A stretch of 21,112 nucleotides of DNA from a virus, in IMG/VR virus record IMGVR_UViG_3300009068_000229, positions 1 through 21,112 of that record. One strand, written 5' to 3'. Below are positions 2,315-9,393 of the stretch, piece after piece (position 1 is the first letter of the stretch; every line of letters starts with the position of its first letter). A model generated the notes under the pieces. That model did no database searches. It was not told the DNA's origin and saw only the letters and a program-made list of their open reading frames with translations. The position numbers and the translations under genes were made by a program.

Positions 2315-3105
2315 GGTGCTGTACCTGCTAGCATGGCCTGCATGTAGGCCTGGTGTTGTGGATTGGTCATGTCTAATGGTACCCAGCCTGTTCCAAAATC
2401 TATCTCCCATTCTGCTGATGTTTGATTGTACCGCACACTGGCATGTGACATGGTGTTTTGTCCCGGTTGGCCTTGTGGTTGCGGCGGCGATGGTTGTTGC
2501 GGTGCAGCTTGCCCTCCGCTGGTTGCTGCTGTTTGTGCCGCAGCTTGCCCTCCACCGGCTGCTGCTGTTTGTGCCGGATGAAACTGAACTAGAACACTGG
2601 CATCATACGCTGCCTGTGCCACTTTTTGCCATTCAGCTAATTCTTGTGTGGCAGTTTTGTCCATCCAGAAAGTATGCAATTCTCTCACACCATCTTCCAA
2701 TCGGTTCATAATATTGGTAGCTTGATCGGTATAGTATGTCGTGGGCTGCCCATTGGCACCCACTGTGGCCACTGCCTGTGGCAATGTTCTAATATCCATG
2801 TTGTTCATCAATGAAGATATCATCTGGCGTAGTGTTTTTTCTAATGCTCTCATAGACTGATCGCTTAGATCTTCCGGATTGGTCACAACATCTGCTGCCA
2901 TGGCCTGAGATACTTGTTTTGCCCAATCGCGTTGCATCTGTCGTGATTGTCTGGCTATCAACGGTGGTGCGTTGGCCAGTGCTTCCAGTTCTGGGGTTGA
3001 TTTTTGCTGATCGGGTACATCTATACCAAATCCTTTTAAGAATCCTTTGGACCATGCACCCACTTCATTCAGCCGGCGGCGTTGGGTCAGTTCATGAATT
3101 TGCAT
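2311..3105 (-). CDS. Unknown phage protein with Ala/Gln/Pro-rich linker
   Basis: 264 residues from ATG 3105, with AAGGA about seven bases upstream. The first 14 bases overlap the preceding gene and the TGA overlaps the next ATG, so the three genes look translationally coupled. Residues 1-170 are predicted mostly helical and polar. Residues about 178-215 form a low-complexity linker of Ala, Gly, Gln and Pro built partly from a 36-bp tandem repeat. The last 45 residues form a small compact-looking segment ending in LAGTAP. No signal peptide, membrane segment or catalytic motif was found. The family is not recognised. The flexible linker between two ordered parts could suit an assembly or scaffolding role, but nothing in the sequence proves that. 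Confidence 0.75.
   Translation of the reverse strand: MQIHELTQRRRLNEVGAWSKGFLKGFGIDVPDQQKSTPELEALANAPPLIARQSRQMQRDWAKQVSQAMAADVVTNPEDLSDQSMRALEKTLRQMISSLMNNMDIRTLPQAVATVGANGQPTTYYTDQATNIMNRLEDGVRELHTFWMDKTATQELAEWQKVAQAAYDASVLVQFHPAQTAAAGGGQAAAQTAATSGGQAAPQQPSPPQPQGQPGQNTMSHASVRYNQTSAEWEIDFGTGWVPLDMTNPQHQAYMQAMLAGTAP
2504..2575 (+). repeat. 36-bp tandem direct repeat (two copies) inside a coding region
   Basis: Two adjacent 36-base units (2504-2539 and 2540-2575) differ at only about three bases. On the minus strand they encode the repeated peptide pattern GGQAA(A/P)Q in the Ala/Gln-rich linker. The unit is a multiple of three, so copy-number change would keep the frame. Confidence 0.8.
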
Positions 3106-3340
3106 CTGTTTTCCTTACTGATCGAGAGAATTTACCGGCATTTTTTGTGCGTATGGCATTGAGAAATTTCCTATTGAGAGCTTCGGCTGTTTCTGTATCA
3201 AATTCACTGTCTATTTGTTCCAGCAATCTGATGGCATTGACTATTATGGTGGCCGCACGATTTTCTATCACCAGCCGACGATCTCGTTCGATGTACAGAC
3301 TGTCCAGTTCTTCCAGGATGCTGCGTGTTTTCTTTTGCAT
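3092..3340 (-). CDS. Small helical phage protein of unknown function
   Basis: 82 residues from ATG 3340 (MQKKTRSILEELDSLYIERD). An in-frame TTG at 3349 is an alternative start: AAAGG lies only four bases before it, but about eleven before the ATG. The product is charged and predicted almost entirely alpha-helical, possibly a short coiled coil, with no cysteine pairs or membrane segment. Its stop overlaps the start of the next gene by 14 bases, making it the first gene of the operon that ends at 287. A weak late-type motif (GCTAAATA) lies upstream. The family is not recognised; the position suggests a small assembly-related protein, which is inference. Confidence 0.7.
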   Translation of the reverse strand: MQKKTRSILEELDSLYIERDRRLVIENRAATIIVNAIRLLEQIDSEFDTETAEALNRKFLNAIRTKNAGKFSRSVRKTDANS

Positions 3341-3361
3341 GTAAATCAATGGCCTTTGGAT

Positions 3362-3412: not shown

Positions 3413-4693
3413 ATGACCAGCAGCATCAACCCACAAAACATCGACGCCAACTACCCTGTTGCCGGCGTGCCTAACAATACTCAAGGATTCCGTGATAACT
3501 TCACTAACATCCAAACCAACTTTACTTACGCCAAAAACGAAATTACAGATCTGGAAAACAAGGCCATCCTTAAAAGTGCATTGACCGGCACCACCTTGGA
3601 CAACAACATGGCGGATCAATTGATCTACTCTGCGTTGATCCGTGACTTTTCCGGCAGTATCGTGCAAAACACAGTGACTTCGGGATCGGTCACTTTGGAT
3701 TATAGTTCCGGGCATTATCAAACTGTGAGCACTAGCGGTAGTGTTAGCCTGGGATTTACCAACTTTCCCACAGCGGGAACTGTGGGCATGATGCGTGTGC
3801 AGATCAATATCACCAACACCGCATACACTGTGACCTTGCCTGCTGCTGTGACCCTGGGTGTCACTGGCATACAAGGTATCAGTTCTAATGTGATCACATT
3901 CGGAGCAATTGGTTATTATGAATTTGGATTTGTGACCAGTGATGGTGGTACTACTGTTACTGTGTTTGATTTGAATAGGCCTCTCAGTTATTATACCAAC
4001 ACCGTTAATGTGGCAGCTACTACTAGTAGCACCAGTACCACCACAGGTGCAGTGATTGTAGCTGGCGGTATGGGAATCGCAGGAAACTTGTACGTGGGTG
4101 GTGACATATTTGGTAATGTGACTGTGACAGATATTTCACTTGGTAATGTAACAGCATCCGGATTTGTCAGTGCTACGGGCAATGTCACCGGTGGTAATAT
4201 ACGCACCGCGGGATTGATTTCAGCAGCTGGCACCATAAGTGCGGGCGGGGTAGTATTGACAGGAAACATCAGTGCCAATGGTTATCAAGGTAACACATTC
4301 TCAGTGACTGGTAACGTAACCGGGGCTAACATCATTGGTATTGTTGCTGCTGGATCCAATACAATCACTACGTCAGGTAACATCAGTGGCGGCAATGTCA
4401 GTGCCACTGCCAACGTCATTGGTGGTAATATACGAACTGGTGGTCAAGTAAGTGCTACCGGTAATGCATTGTTTTTGGCTGGCACCGCAGTACCAGTTGG
4501 TGGCACAGCAGGTGCTGGCATAATGATGTCTAGCACTACCAATCTTGGTATATTTTTTGGATCAGGTGCGCCAACAATAGCAGCAGCTCAAGGTAGTTTA
4601 TATCTCAGGACTGATGGGTCTAGTTCTAGCACACGCCTGTACGTGAATACCACGGGTAGTACCAGCTGGACCAACGTGACCACTGCTATCTAA
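3413..4693 (+). CDS. Repetitive tail-fibre-like structural protein
   Basis: 426 residues from ATG 3413, behind AAGGA and a late promoter. Residues 1-55 form a helical head containing the NNTQGFRDNF motif (21-30), which I recall from other T4-like phage fibres. Residues 85-190 are beta-rich. At 210-232 comes TTGAVIVAGGMGIAGNLYVG, a segment typical of trimeric fibre shafts. Residues 243-350 are imperfect short repeats around GN(V/I)(T/S)GGNI and VSATGN, suggesting a beta-helical or collagen-like trimer shaft. The C-terminus (about 385-426) is a small beta domain with LYLRTDGSSSSTRLYVNTTG, a common fibre ending. It is isolated on the plus strand between minus-strand genes. A role in host binding is likely but inferred. 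Confidence 0.85.
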   Translation: MTSSINPQNIDANYPVAGVPNNTQGFRDNFTNIQTNFTYAKNEITDLENKAILKSALTGTTLDNNMADQLIYSALIRDFSGSIVQNTVTSGSVTLDYSSGHYQTVSTSGSVSLGFTNFPTAGTVGMMRVQINITNTAYTVTLPAAVTLGVTGIQGISSNVITFGAIGYYEFGFVTSDGGTTVTVFDLNRPLSYYTNTVNVAATTSSTSTTTGAVIVAGGMGIAGNLYVGGDIFGNVTVTDISLGNVTASGFVSATGNVTGGNIRTAGLISAAGTISAGGVVLTGNISANGYQGNTFSVTGNVTGANIIGIVAAGSNTITTSGNISGGNVSATANVIGGNIRTGGQVSATGNALFLAGTAVPVGGTAGAGIMMSSTTNLGIFFGSGAPTIAAAQGSLYLRTDGSSSSTRLYVNTTGSTSWTNVTTAI

Positions 4694-4756
4694 TTATTTC
4701 TTTATACTGCCCAACAACTGCTTGAGTTTGTTGCTTTGCGGCCATTGAGTTGATTT
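4694..4756 (-). pseudogene. Remnant of a replicative-helicase 3' end
   Basis: This gap holds a short open stretch on the minus strand ending in TAA at 4694-4696. It encodes QSNKLKQLLGSIKK, against QSSKLKEMLGKIKTA at the end of the helicase about 1.2 kb away. Over 13 codons (4700-4738 versus 5884-5922) 30 of 39 bases match, and both copies end within two codons of a stop. A stop at 4757-4759 and the lack of a start show it is not a gene now. The simplest reading is the old helicase terminus, left behind when the radical SAM gene and a new helicase end were acquired. Confidence 0.6.
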
Positions 4757-4771
4757 TTAGGACTAACTTAA

Positions 4772-5878
4772 TCACAAAAATCTAGCATAAAATTTAGCTA
4801 CTTCAGGAAATGTTTTTTCAAAAGATTGATTTCTAAAATTGTCAAACTTTTTAATTTCATGTATCATGCTGTTGATGCTGTCTGGATTTTCTTGCCAAGA
4901 CTGTGGTATAAGATGTCTCTGATCGGTCATACTCATGGCAGACACATATTCTTGTGAGCATGCTGCTAGTGAAAAAATACCAAATGCTAGATGTTTAGTA
5001 TGATCAACTTGATCACCTTCTCTATTGATTGAGAAATTATTTTTAACCCAGTGAGATAATTCATCAGTATACCATAAATTAAATATGCTGACCGTTTCCT
5101 CAATCAGGAACATGGTGTTACTCGGGGCCGACTCTCGAATTTCAAGAATGTTATCAACTGTCTGATTCCAGCTCGCAGGCCACCGTAAATATTCAAATCT
5201 CTCACCTATACCATCTAAACTTATCTGTAATCTGACCAGGCGGAATCGGTTAATGAGTTCGTGTTGGCGTGGGTGAATGGGTTGTGTGCCATTGGTCTGA
5301 AAACACAAAGTTAACTGTTGTTTGGCATTGGGTACATTATCTGCTAACCAATCGGCTATGCTCCAATATGATTGTCCTAACATGGTTTCTCCACCACAAA
5401 ATACTACCATTCGTAGATTAGATAGATCCAATTTCTTTAATGCTGGGACCACATCATCGTACGGCGTTTTTACCAACTGGTCCCATGAGTTGTGAATTTT
5501 TAGATGTTTCTGCCAGAAAGTGCTACTGTTTGGCCCACATGTTCTGCAAGCAAGATTACAACTGATATCCCCGTTGATATCTATCCTAGTTGGTCCCGAT
5601 AAATTATACCCAGATATCTCAAGTCCTTGTTTCATCCCCGATCGATAGCTGATTTGCCCACTGGATTCTAGACTCTGACAATTTTCACAACCCTGAGCCC
5701 AGACATTTTGTTTGTTTTGTTCTCTGAGCATACTAAAATTACTATCTTTCCAATAGTCAGTATTGATATCTACTAAAAATCCATCATTTCGTAAACAGCA
5801 ATGTTTTACGGATAAATTTCCACGATCAAAATATATGACTAGCCCGCCATGTATTATTGGGCAATATAAATCGCTCAT
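4772..5878 (-). CDS. Radical SAM protein with N-terminal twitch-type domain
   Basis: 368 residues from ATG 5878, which overlaps the helicase stop (ATGA); the open frame extends further up but only shadows the helicase. Residues 1-90 match the layout of twitch-domain radical SAM proteins: CC at 27-28, then GCENC (Cys64, Cys67) followed by ESSGQISYRSG. The core begins near residue 97 with the cluster-binding CNLACRTC (Cys107, Cys111, Cys114). It continues with VVFCGGETML (GGE motif, about 158-167) and FQTNGT. Such enzymes bind a [4Fe-4S] cluster and cleave S-adenosylmethionine to start radical chemistry; the substrate is unknown. The gene is visibly more A+T-rich than its helicase and primase neighbours and is flanked by a duplicated helicase tail, which suggests recent acquisition. 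Confidence 0.88.
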   Translation of the reverse strand: MSDLYCPIIHGGLVIYFDRGNLSVKHCCLRNDGFLVDINTDYWKDSNFSMLREQNKQNVWAQGCENCQSLESSGQISYRSGMKQGLEISGYNLSGPTRIDINGDISCNLACRTCGPNSSTFWQKHLKIHNSWDQLVKTPYDDVVPALKKLDLSNLRMVVFCGGETMLGQSYWSIADWLADNVPNAKQQLTLCFQTNGTQPIHPRQHELINRFRLVRLQISLDGIGERFEYLRWPASWNQTVDNILEIRESAPSNTMFLIEETVSIFNLWYTDELSHWVKNNFSINREGDQVDHTKHLAFGIFSLAACSQEYVSAMSMTDQRHLIPQSWQENPDSINSMIHEIKKFDNFRNQSFEKTFPEVAKFYARFL

Positions 5879-7323
5879 GCCGTTTTGATCTTTCCCAACA
5901 TCTCCTTGAGCTTGCTGCTTTGTACATCGGCGCTGACCTTGGGTGTGGGATCCAATGGATCTATACCCGGCTTGGGCTGCGCACGTTCCCATCCGTTGTT
6001 TGATGTCACAGGCTCGGCAGGTGTGACACTTGCACGGGCTTTGATAGTTTCCATAAAACTGGGCTTGGAAGCACGTGACCCGGTATCCCCATCTTCGCCA
6101 CCTTCATCGGTGATACGCATGGTCTCAATGTTGTATTCCAAATCAATCTTTTGACCCACACCCGTGGAACTACGCGATTTCATACATTGGATCTGATACT
6201 TGCCACGTTCTTTCATTGATCTGCTGGTAAAGATACCAAACACATTGTCTGCTGTGTTGATCTTTGAAATGCCACCTGCGATATGACTGTGATCAAATTC
6301 TACTTCTTCCACTGCACTACGATTCAACTGCGAGGCAGTGACCATCAATATCTGTAGTTCTTTGGCCAAGTTGCGCAGTTCTTCACTCACATACTTGTCT
6401 TTGATAAACTGATCATTGGGATTGACTTTCACACTGATTGGCATCAGCAAGTCCAGGTAATCAATCATCACAAAATCCACACGTTTGCTGGTTTGTATCT
6501 GATATTCTTTCAAGTATGATCTAATGTCATTGATGTTGCTCTGTGCCGGCAACCCTTTCACTTGATAGTTGCCGGACTTCTTGCCCATCATCCTGACCTT
6601 GAGCTCAGTGGTATTGATATCTCTGCGTATGTCTTTGGTGCTCATGTTTGTGAGCATGGCATCTGTACGCAAACTGGTCAAATCCTCACTCAGTTCCAAT
6701 GTCACATACACTCCACTTAGCCCTTGTTGCAACCAGTTCAGTGCGATATTCATCATGACCAAACTCTTACCCGATCCCGACCCACCTGCAAATATGTTTA
6801 GTTCTCCACGACTGAATCCACCATACAGCAATCGATCCATCTGTGGCCAGCCAGTGCTCACCTGCCCGCCTGAGTTAAAATAGTTGTTGATACGACTTGC
6901 TGGATCAGCAAAGTAGTCTGTGCCCATGTCTTTGGTCAGACTGATCTGTACTGCATCTTTGATCAGTTTTTCCACTGGGCCGTACTCGCCCTTTTCTAGC
7001 AAGTCTGCTGATTTCAATATAGCACGTTCTAATTCTTGTCTGCGTGTGAATGCTTCAAACTCCTCCATGAACCATTCATAGTGTCCTTCATTCAAGTCTG
7101 GCACCGCCTGTAGTTTCAGACCAGTGGTGGCTGCTATCTGCGTGATATCCGGCAGAGTTTTGTGTTTTTCGCTGTGCTCTTTGATAAACTCTGCTGCTGC
7201 TCGTAGGCTCTTATCAAAGTTCTCTGGATTGTAAATGTTCTGCACACGCACATAGCTGGCAGCATCCTCTAATATCATTTCCAGGAATAATTTTTGTACA
7301 TCAATGCTGTAATCTTTTAACAA
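5875..7323 (-). CDS. Replicative DNA helicase, DnaB-like (T4 gp41 type)
   Basis: 482 residues, close to T4 gp41 (475). It unwinds DNA ahead of the fork as a hexamer with the primase. The RecA-like core shows Walker A AGGSGSGKS (179-187), Walker B VMIDYLDLL (285-293) and the Gln-bearing motif VTASQLNRSA (328-337). Residues 1-130 are the helical N-domain. The tail from about 405 is Pro/Ser-rich and ends in a short basic helix. The start is a TTG at 7323: AAGGAAG sits about six bases upstream, and the next methionine (residue 16) would cut into the N-domain. The first 23 bases overlap the primase end, so primase and helicase are coupled as in T4 (genes 61 and 41). The radical SAM gene follows directly. 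Confidence 0.93.
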   Translation of the reverse strand: MLKDYSIDVQKLFLEMILEDAASYVRVQNIYNPENFDKSLRAAAEFIKEHSEKHKTLPDITQIAATTGLKLQAVPDLNEGHYEWFMEEFEAFTRRQELERAILKSADLLEKGEYGPVEKLIKDAVQISLTKDMGTDYFADPASRINNYFNSGGQVSTGWPQMDRLLYGGFSRGELNIFAGGSGSGKSLVMMNIALNWLQQGLSGVYVTLELSEDLTSLRTDAMLTNMSTKDIRRDINTTELKVRMMGKKSGNYQVKGLPAQSNINDIRSYLKEYQIQTSKRVDFVMIDYLDLLMPISVKVNPNDQFIKDKYVSEELRNLAKELQILMVTASQLNRSAVEEVEFDHSHIAGGISKINTADNVFGIFTSRSMKERGKYQIQCMKSRSSTGVGQKIDLEYNIETMRITDEGGEDGDTGSRASKPSFMETIKARASVTPAEPVTSNNGWERAQPKPGIDPLDPTPKVSADVQSSKLKEMLGKIKTA

Positions 7324-8284
7324 GTTGCTTCTTCCTTAATTCTATTTTGATCTTACTGCTGTTTCTGTTTTCAAATATAATTAGCAGAGTCGCCAGGCGT
7401 CCATAACGCATCACGCTGTCATTCACATCCTTAATATCCGCGGGCCATGGTGGCATGCTCACTGCCCAACCCAGTTCCACAGCACGATCTACCAGTTCCA
7501 TGCCTGCGGCGTCTTGATCTGGCACCACTGTTATTTCCTTGCCTAGACTACGGATCAGTCGTGCTTGCTCATTACTTATGGTACTGTGCATCACTGCCAG
7601 ACCACCGATGCATAACGCATCAAATATACCTTCTACCACGATTGCATGAGTCCAGTCGTTGTGTTGTAAGTCTGTACCAAACACATAGCCTGGTTGGCTA
7701 TTGCTGATGTATTTAGGCGTACGGTCATCTAAGAATCTCTGTGTGTATCCTACTATGCGATCGTCGTGAATGAATGGTATGATCACGCTGGGTCTATGTT
7801 TCCATGATTTTTCCGGATGATCCTGTATCATCACAGGATAGTCATCAGGCACACACCTAAGCCTTAGATACTCCCTACGCAGATCTTCGCCCGCCAATAA
7901 CTCACTCAATGCCGGCAGTTCTTGTTCTTCAAACTGGATGTCTGATAATGCATTGAATACTCGCTGGCGATCATCCAGGATACCATGTATGCTACGATGC
8001 CTTAGGCTTTCTAGATTCAACGCATCAATCTCTGCGTCGGGCACACCCATCCAGCCCAAGAGCCTACGGGCTTTAAAGCTCACTGAGCGGCCAAGGATAA
8101 AGCTGGCGGTGTAATTGCAGTTGAAGCAGTGATAACTCCACCCCGATTCTGTGGGCTTGAGACCTCCCCGACCACGACGATCTACTGTGGCGCTGCTGTG
8201 CTGGCAGCACACCGCATTGAAACTTACCCAACCTGATGGCGTGGATTTTCGTTTTGCCGGTAGATATTGCAGGATGTCTAGCAT
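7301..8284 (-). CDS. DNA primase (T4 gp61 type), zinc finger plus Toprim
   Basis: 327 residues. It makes RNA primers for lagging-strand synthesis and works with the helicase encoded just after it. A zinc-binding region near the N-terminus has CCQH (26-29) and HCFNC (52-56) around a conserved RRGRGG. The Toprim catalytic part has VVEGIFDAL (Glu218) and VVPDQDAAG (Asp256, Asp258). Length and motif order match phage gp61-type primases (T4 342). The ATG at 8284 has no clear ribosome site. Instead a sigma-70-like promoter places the predicted transcript start on the ATG, so the mRNA may be leaderless. The last 23 bases overlap the helicase start. Confidence 0.92.
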   Translation of the reverse strand: MLDILQYLPAKRKSTPSGWVSFNAVCCQHSSATVDRRGRGGLKPTESGWSYHCFNCNYTASFILGRSVSFKARRLLGWMGVPDAEIDALNLESLRHRSIHGILDDRQRVFNALSDIQFEEQELPALSELLAGEDLRREYLRLRCVPDDYPVMIQDHPEKSWKHRPSVIIPFIHDDRIVGYTQRFLDDRTPKYISNSQPGYVFGTDLQHNDWTHAIVVEGIFDALCIGGLAVMHSTISNEQARLIRSLGKEITVVPDQDAAGMELVDRAVELGWAVSMPPWPADIKDVNDSVMRYGRLATLLIIFENRNSSKIKIELRKKQLVKRLQH

Positions 8285-8290
8285 CCGTAC

Positions 8291-8319
8291 AGTTTAACAG
8301 ATTGTTTGAGCAATCGCAA
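8291..8319 (-). promoter_or_regulatory. Candidate sigma-70 promoter for primase, leaderless layout
   Basis: On the minus strand: -35 TTGCGA (8314-8319), a 17-base spacer, -10 TAAACT (8291-8296), then six bases and the ATG at 8284. Each hexamer matches four of six consensus bases, so it is weak by itself. Spacer and ATG distance are the same as in stronger promoters at 13285 and 17106. The primase cannot easily share the late transcript of the structural gene upstream, so it needs its own promoter. Confidence 0.45.
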
Positions 8320-8322
8320 CGG

Positions 8323-9393
8323 TTATCGGTATTGTACGTTGCGGATCAAGCCATTTGTGAATAACACTGTGGCTGCCAATGAGCCCTGGAACTGTAATGG
8401 AACATATCCTGCGCCACCATTGGTTACCGTGACCGATCCAACACCACCATTACCACTGGCCGAAGCCACTGCTTCTGCACCAGCACCATTGCCTAAAATC
8501 TGCACATACGGTGGGGCCACATAATATTGTCCTGGATAGGTCACACTTATTCCTGTGACCACACCATCTACCACGGTGGCTGTACCACTGGCACCGTATC
8601 CGATGCTATTGTTCATGGCCAATCTCAACAGCGGATGGAATCCTACGATGTTAAAGTAGTCACTTACTGTTTCGTCTAGGTATTGCCGTGATTCAGATAC
8701 ATCTGTCCAAACTGCTTCGTAGTTTTCGGCAGCCTGTATCTTGACTGTGCCTGTGTAATGCACAAGATCAAACTTGATGGTGGTAAAAGCTGTCTGGTTG
8801 GTATTGATATAACTGCTGTAAAATTCAGTTTGTTGTATGCTGTTGACCGGTTGTGGTGTCAATGCCCAATCTGGAAATGCTGTGGGTGCGGCACCAACAT
8901 ATTGATTCTTACCATATAGATCGGGCACAGTGCATTCTGCGCTGGGAATAAAGCTAGGGAATATGCTATCCACGATGTTGCAATCAGCGCGGGCTGCACT
9001 ATCTGCACCGGTATAGGCTGCCTGTACATAGTCACCGGCAGCACGTTGTATGCTGTAACTGGCTGGTTGAGACTGGATGTTGATGGTGTCTGAGCTGTTG
9101 AGAACCACCTTCACACGCCCTGTGCTTGCACTTAGGGTCTCCATGTCTTTGGCCAACAGCAACTGTCCGCCAGCTTGGTCGATAAGACGGAACACGAACG
9201 TGCTACCGGTGATATTGACGGGTTTCTGATCTTGATTGATGAACTCAAACAACAGAACGTTATCAACACCTTTGTTAATGGTTAGGGTCTTTGCATACAC
9301 AGGGTCATACCTCGCAGTAAAGTATCCTCCACTGGTGTCTACTAATAGCACTCGTGTGATTTGTTGGTAAAGATAAGCGGTGGTAGAATACAT
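8323..9393 (-). CDS. Tail/baseplate-like structural protein
   Basis: 356 residues from ATG 9393. Residues 30-100 form a beta-sandwich-like block (LTINKGVDNVLLFEFINQDQ, then TFVFRLID and LLAKDMETLS) resembling N-terminal domains of phage baseplate upper proteins. The middle has a virion-like mix of Tyr, Asn and Gln. Residues about 270-345 contain two rounds of a Gly-rich motif (GVVTGISVTYPGQYY; GGVGSVTVTNGGAGY), common in phage tail and fibre proteins. No signal peptide or enzyme motif was found. A GATAAATA late motif lies seven bases before the ATG and TAGGAT abuts the start. It is a single-gene unit between divergent late promoters and the primase. The structural role is well supported; the exact position in the virion is not. 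Confidence 0.8.
   Translation of the reverse strand: MYSTTAYLYQQITRVLLVDTSGGYFTARYDPVYAKTLTINKGVDNVLLFEFINQDQKPVNITGSTFVFRLIDQAGGQLLLAKDMETLSASTGRVKVVLNSSDTINIQSQPASYSIQRAAGDYVQAAYTGADSAARADCNIVDSIFPSFIPSAECTVPDLYGKNQYVGAAPTAFPDWALTPQPVNSIQQTEFYSSYINTNQTAFTTIKFDLVHYTGTVKIQAAENYEAVWTDVSESRQYLDETVSDYFNIVGFHPLLRLAMNNSIGYGASGTATVVDGVVTGISVTYPGQYYVAPPYVQILGNGAGAEAVASASGNGGVGSVTVTNGGAGYVPLQFQGSLAATVLFTNGLIRNVQYR

Follow-up and report, generated by a model that had tools for sequence, protein, structure and literature searches.

In the phage DNA analysed here, a radical SAM (rSAM) gene was very probably acquired in a recent capture of cargo by one-sided homologous recombination and an illegitimate right joint, by which the recipient's own helicase tail was stranded beyond the cargo. 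The window, i.e. the whole stretch that was analysed, comprises 21,112 nt (positions 1 to 21,112 of IMG/VR record IMGVR_UViG_3300009068_000229) and comes from a large freshwater phage. The following features were located around the insertion (positions are those of the window):

3092..3349, minus strand: g3092, conserved virion structural protein, which closes the slot (phrog_11854).
3413..4693, plus strand: converging gene, probably for a fibre or structural protein (open reading frame; position and repeat-rich sequence).
4694..4738, minus strand: putative stranded recipient helicase tail (the remnant), QSNKLKQLLGSIKK and a TAA stop (comparison with L002/L195).
4740..4771, minus strand: putative donor rSAM-g3092 intergenic DNA (BLAST for 4750-4771; likeness by eye for 4740-4749).
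4772..5878, minus strand: rSAM cargo gene, putative twitch-type enzyme of 368 aa (Pfam Radical_SAM; NF033640; tree).
5875..5947, minus strand: putative donor-derived helicase tail, last ~73 nt of the gene (informative sites: 9 donor-like vs 1 recipient-like).
5875..7323, minus strand: DnaB-like replicative helicase (open reading frame; phrog_19, E = 5e-72; Pfam DnaB_C).

The helicase gene overlaps the primase gene (7301-8284) with its 5' end and the rSAM start codon with its TGA stop (ATGA, 5878-5875). Beyond the rSAM gene, the stop of the converging gene (4691-4693) directly adjoins the stop of the remnant. 'Fibre' is a working name for gene 3413..4693, given from its position and repeat-rich sequence; family searches (Pfam, PHROGs) with this gene gave no match.

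A preliminary description had reported a second copy of the helicase tail beyond the rSAM gene, and its numbers were exact on recount. The copy within the helicase (minus strand 5922-5884, CAAAGCAGCAAGCTCAAGGAGATGTTGGGAAAGATCAAA, translated QSSKLKEMLGKIK) and the second copy (minus strand 4738-4700, CAAAGCAACAAACTCAAGCAGTTGTTGGGCAGTATAAAG, translated QSNKLKQLLGSIK) are identical at 30/39 bases and 9/13 residues, and only one gene, rSAM (4772-5878), lies between them. The copies do lie near stops, as had been described, but are not terminal: the first is followed by two codons (T, A) and TGA, the second by one codon (K) and TAA. The intervening gene is A+T-rich (38.0% GC vs 44.6% for the window), again as described. 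Donor-like rSAM genes of phage relatives are equally A+T-rich (37-39% GC), and a non-phage origin judged by composition was therefore discarded. The next best ungapped match to the helicase tail within the window was 23/39, and the best match in 200 first-order Markov sequences (42 kb) was 26/39. In a self-comparison, with comparisons within the fibre gene excluded, no reciprocal scar (a duplicated fibre end beside the helicase) was seen.

Related loci were collected by seven protein scans of IMG/VR, which yielded 281 loci, 153 of them with distinct helicase ends. Several sit on contigs of 200-330 kb. The nearest named helicases, those of PA5oct-like jumbo phages (48%), were too distant for comparing junctions, and no rSAM relative was found among the INPHARED phages. 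In these loci, the slot from the helicase stop to g3092 is empty or occupied by a converging fibre-like gene or by cargo. Radical SAM genes are the commonest cargo; the others are SGNH-like (a name given from sequence, without family match) or of no known family, so that other cargo genes do occupy the slot, as the preliminary description had foreseen.

One close relative, represented by two contigs that are 100% identical over 5,095 nt (L002 and the longer L195, which contains it), provides the empty site. Its helicase is 92% identical to that of the window and the rSAM gene is absent. The helicase ends with VQSNKLKQLLGNIKK-TAA and the fibre stop is immediately next, without intergenic DNA. 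The remnant matches the L002 helicase tail at 41/48 bases, in the same register, vs 20/48 for the window's own active tail, and downstream of the remnant 20/24 bases match L002. Positions 7360-7397 of L195 (helicase tail) align twice to the window, with the active tail and with the remnant. A single helicase tail is present in each of the rSAM-free relatives L002/L195, L008 and L169; it resembles the remnant more closely than the window's active tail does and adjoins the fibre stop in the same register. None of the 40 empty loci carries two tails, and no other conserved gene includes the remnant. Judged from these alignments, the remnant is the native helicase end of the recipient, which is what had been predicted for it. 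Outside the window, its exact joint was found only in a single further contig, L001/L282 (99.99% over 11.4 kb), possibly of the same population as the window phage.

The helicase gene itself is a chimera, with an L002-like body and an L154/L155-like end of ~70 nt. In helicase nt 1-1200, 146 informative sites were resolved, of which 114 were of the recipient (L002) type and 32 of the donor type; in the last 73 nt, 1 site was recipient-like and 9 were donor-like (L154/L155) (Fisher p = 2.4e-5, for a breakpoint picked after inspection and a tail of only 10 informative sites). The left crossover was placed only within 5947-6123 of the window, where the linker (helicase nt 1201-1376) is poorly conserved and ambiguous. 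In the trees, the helicase body was sister to L002/L195 (1.000) and g3092 grouped with L002/L195 and L169 (0.985), while rSAM grouped with L154 and L007 (0.994). Comparison of the rSAM phylogeny with that of its neighbours, which the preliminary description had recommended, together with the informative sites placed rSAM and the active tail with the L154/L155 clade and the helicase body and downstream gene with L002/L195.

The nearest rSAM relatives of the window are those of L154 (85%) and L155/L007 (83%), in which the gene order is helicase-rSAM-g3092, without the fibre gene. Donor similarity extends past the cargo: at least the 22 nt beyond rSAM (4750-4771) align by BLAST with rSAM-g3092 intergenic DNA of L154/L155, and 4740-4749 (CTCAATGGCC) resembles the same DNA by eye, after a 7-nt gap (TAAATAA missing). 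The right joint is at about 4739/4740, ~44 nt before the recipient helicase stop. As donor tail, rSAM and then donor intergenic bases all match L154/L155, the incoming piece would have consisted of a donor helicase tail, rSAM and some donor intergenic DNA. The relatives that stand for donor and recipient have nucleotide identities of about 82-92% (nearest donor cargo 83%, recipient helicase body 92%), and the order of events is a reconstruction because the true donor and recipient are not among the sampled relatives. L154/L155 carry AATAAATAA before g3092, which resembles a T4-type late promoter core; the absence of TAAATAA there in the window is possibly the loss of a promoter rendered useless by the insertion.

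The proposed course of events is as follows. A recipient like L002/L195, with helicase and fibre genes stop-to-stop and no intergenic DNA, would have met a donor like L154/L155 (helicase-rSAM-g3092), presumably during co-infection. On the left side, homologous exchange in the helicase 3' region would have completed the helicase with the donor tail, in which the TGA stop shares bases with the rSAM ATG. At the right end, the end of the donor rSAM-g3092 intergenic DNA would have been joined without real homology ~44 nt before the recipient helicase stop, and the recipient tail would have been left before the fibre gene as a non-coding fragment. Surviving insertions would keep the duplicated tail until its decay or deletion, and remnants would later be lost. 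A duplicated gene end would be needed for harmless entry of cargo because the neighbouring core genes abut or overlap. The suggestion of the preliminary description, that the incoming DNA brought its own helicase tail and left the original downstream, is supported by the empty site, the chimera, the trees and the donor intergenic DNA. The recombination pathway is deduced from scars; the duplication, empty site, chimerism, donor DNA past the cargo, recurrence and truncation of the cargo at one joint were read directly.

Recurrence was examined with a profile of the helicase tail, which was used to seek second, in-frame, stop-terminated copies past cargo. Stranded tails were found in L035, L038, L071, L148, L181, L165 (short), L227, L230, L277 and the window phage (L153/L001). 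These ten loci represent seven distinct joints, one being common to L148/L181 and one to L227/L230/L277. Stranded tails were present at 10/72 cargo-bearing loci vs 0/40 empty loci (the 72 being 71 classified by a simple script plus L277, with 40 loci unresolved or unclassified and relatedness unweighted). No full-tail match was found upstream or on the reverse strand in the 153 loci. Remnant matches in L221 and L237 were rejected as artefacts, caused by an in-frame stop and an intein-like insertion, respectively.

The cargo differs between scars, being rSAM or other genes, and L035 and L148/L181 are without a radical SAM gene. In L148, the junction of the stranded copy with the next gene matches that of an empty relative, L141 (93% over 134 nt), and the same junctions in L035, L165 and L181 are also like those of empty relatives. 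At the active helicase stop, ATGA is present at 39/71 cargo loci vs 0/40 empty loci, and the stop is TGA in 45/71 vs 2/40 (p = 3.5e-10). From these sequences, the cargo-associated helicase tail tends to be an allele other than the native TAA tail. No remnant was detected at 62 of the 72 cargo loci; either remnants were lost or many insertions arose otherwise, by two-sided homologous exchange. The remnant of L227/L230 carries non-conservative changes (QNAKLKELPEQIK), which suggests its decay.

The right joints lie at about -31, -44, -58, -61, -70, -70 and -76 nt from the recipient stop, with no fixed site, and all seven fall within the last 76 nt of the 1.45-kb helicase gene. The donor side of the joint is past the gene in the window, inside the downstream fibre end in L165, in the last codons of the cargo in L227/L277 and inside a gene in L013. 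Short words are common to both sides at some joints (e.g. AGCAG, L277 vs L100/L270 and L078).

The scar also occurs at a second junction. Primase and helicase genes normally overlap by 23 nt. In L013, a second primase tail, in frame and with 82% identity over 111 nt, lies past the cargo that separates them, and a short second copy of the overlap is kept in L121, L159 and L281, where cargo also separates the two genes; the primase-helicase scar was thus found at four loci. The cargo before the second primase tail of L013 is a radical SAM gene cut after ~86 residues at the joint, and the right end of the incoming DNA is therefore not a defined cassette end. The variable joints and the truncated cargo gene argue against a homing element or an integrase. 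The primase-helicase junction is itself a second cargo slot, often holding radical SAM or SGNH-like genes (L157:1468-3544, L221:5983-6864, L013:2760-4369).

It is possible, though doubtful, that the insertions are portable cassettes, the two tail copies serving as homology arms for two-sided recombination into empty genomes and recombination between the copies causing loss. Between L227/L230 and L277, cargo (87%) and remnant (85-87%) are alike, but neither the helicase end directly upstream (54-59%) nor the gene that follows downstream (44-51%) is related. The remnant of L227/L230 is not the native tail of that lineage and travelled with the cargo. L148/L181 likewise have cargo and remnant in common with different downstream genes, and between lineages the similarity of the cargo exceeds that of the helicase body by up to 16 points. 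Such sharing was seen in two groups only, however, most cargo loci are without a second tail, and the window needs a one-sided event only, since its remnant is of the recipient type. The two processes are compatible if cassette transfer is a second step after one-sided capture, in which the tail copies might act as homology arms, as the shared remnants suggest without establishing it. A wider reading, in which stranded tails are not just scars but functional boundaries of enzyme-free cassettes that spread between divergent phages through recombination at repeats of host genes, as L227/L230 vs L277 would suggest, and were possibly seeded by targeted cuts in the helicase tail, appears unlikely.

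Targeted insertion, in which an endonuclease (homing-type or other) encoded outside the sequenced part cuts the recipient tail and one-sided repair from the donor follows, is improbable. It would fit the position of all seven helicase joints 31-76 nt from the stop and the high conservation of the tail motif, and homing-type elements probably exist in the group, given a helicase with an intein-like insertion and a long overlapping ORF in L237. The joints are not at a single position, however, and the scar also occurs at the primase, a different gene with a different sequence. The preliminary description had seen no endonuclease or integrase, and Pfam and PHROGs searches of the slot cargo representatives, taken from contigs that are fragments, gave none that was convincing; the one endonuclease match, to endonuclease VII, was sub-threshold (E = 0.007). 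Neither of the marks of homing, an endonuclease in the insert or a fixed cut site, was found with the slot cargo. No nuclease would be needed for the clustering if it stems from instability of longer direct repeats. Under one-sided capture, selection rather than targeted cutting would keep the joints within the final ~76 nt, and their clustering may reflect such instability.

The e14 prophage in E. coli icd supplies a new 3' end to the gene while the old end persists downstream, by means of an integrase and a fixed core site. Insertion at the helicase 3' end by an integrase or transposase according to this logic would leave the same footprint, a restored gene end and a stranded original tail. 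It is nevertheless very improbable: the slot cargo tested gave no integrase or transposase match, the phage slot has no fixed core site or common crossover, one joint (L013) cuts into the cargo, and donor DNA extends a variable distance past the cargo. A repeat finder returned a single weak inverted repeat, located within rSAM. That short basic C-terminal tails are alike by chance or through convergent evolution, which is conceivable for a motif of 13 residues, was dismissed as virtually impossible in view of 30/39 matches vs a simulated maximum of 26/39, the synteny with the native helicase-fibre junction and the recurrence at 10 loci vs 0 controls.

One-sided capture of this kind has a bacterial counterpart in homology-facilitated illegitimate recombination (HFIR), described for Streptococcus pneumoniae, Acinetobacter baylyi, Pseudomonas stutzeri and E. 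coli (PMC3240628), in which incoming DNA likewise recombines homologously at one of its ends and is joined without homology at the other. In the window phage, the L002-like helicase body with its L154/L155-like tail corresponds to the homologous side. A joint without substantial homology is found on the other side, where intergenic DNA was joined onto helicase codons; the variable joints and the truncated L013 rSAM agree with this. HFIR was observed with linear DNA entering bacterial chromosomes, whereas here the partners are phage genomes, the process is deduced from scars and a core-gene end is duplicated. A process akin to HFIR was also proposed for Vibrio cholerae T6SS arrays, in which effector/immunity and Rhs 3' ends are displaced (PMC5361080). 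In these arrays, as in the window, the upstream anchor is conserved, the 3' module is new and the old 3' part is stranded downstream; there, however, an immunity gene or toxin tip is displaced, and here a replication-gene scrap of ~10-25 codons, with unrelated cargo. The type of mechanism is known in bacteria; its phage version is new.

Lytic myovirus-like genomes in which variable cargo separates conserved modules are also known from work on PeSL cassettes of T4-like hyperplastic regions, for which a promoter/stem-loop model was put forward (Arbiol et al., 2010, as cited in PMC4503421), and from homing-endonuclease islands, with a nuclease-driven homing model (PMC10448857). In the window slot, neither a clear promoter/stem-loop nor a convincing nuclease was detected. 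Sigma-70 and terminator scans of the window stayed at or below shuffle level with hits inside rSAM only, sigma-70 being perhaps not the promoter type of this phage, and the window yielded nothing of use when searched for Rfam families, tRNAs and exact late promoters. To our knowledge, gene-tail scars are not part of the PeSL or homing-island models. No such scar in phages was reported in the literature searched, which did not cover the key T4-like cassette papers.

In lytic phages with gapless gene order, gene gain without integrases or transposons is usually deduced from mosaicism alone. The scars are directional, since they reveal the homologous side, the illegitimate side and the donor vs recipient genome. 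They recur at two core-gene junctions, and the process is therefore countable across metagenomes and testable in co-infections. For annotation, a short in-frame tail of a core gene in a phage genome may be the footprint of an insertion.

The cargo protein is a putative twitch-type radical SAM enzyme at the NF033640 threshold (169.5 bits, curated cutoff 170). The CxxxCxxC cysteines are invariant in 14 rSAM relatives. Its predicted fold resembles radical SAM enzymes only in a generic way (the fold search returned generic rSAM enzymes alone, at a best TM-score of 0.38), a PDB sequence search gave no match, and only three remote relatives (20-22%) were found in bacterial genomes. The insertion argument is independent of the rSAM substrate.

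Some other features of the related loci were recorded. The helicase of L221 (7086-7382) is 85% identical over its full length with an in-frame stop near codon 99, which is a sequencing error or a real nonsense mutation. The intein-like insertion in the L237 helicase (6990-8820) has an N-terminal Cys (...CLALDTK) and a C-terminal ...ANDILTHN|S, and the out-of-frame ORF 7220-8711 may be a homing endonuclease. A cargo gene of L035 (3175-3984) matches the N-terminal domain of ApeA, which is defence-related, but weakly and below the cutoff (E = 4e-4). The slot of L167 (2787-4535, minus strand), and similarly that of L161, holds a 582-aa ORF that matches two domains of bacterial DNA polymerase III alpha, NTPase (E = 8e-41) and finger (E = 8e-15), and is apparently a polymerase fragment carried as cargo. 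A single slot of L010 (2306-4308; 3-2005 after the helicase stop) holds two radical SAM genes in tandem, with 78% identity over 1 kb, which are a gene duplication inside the cargo.
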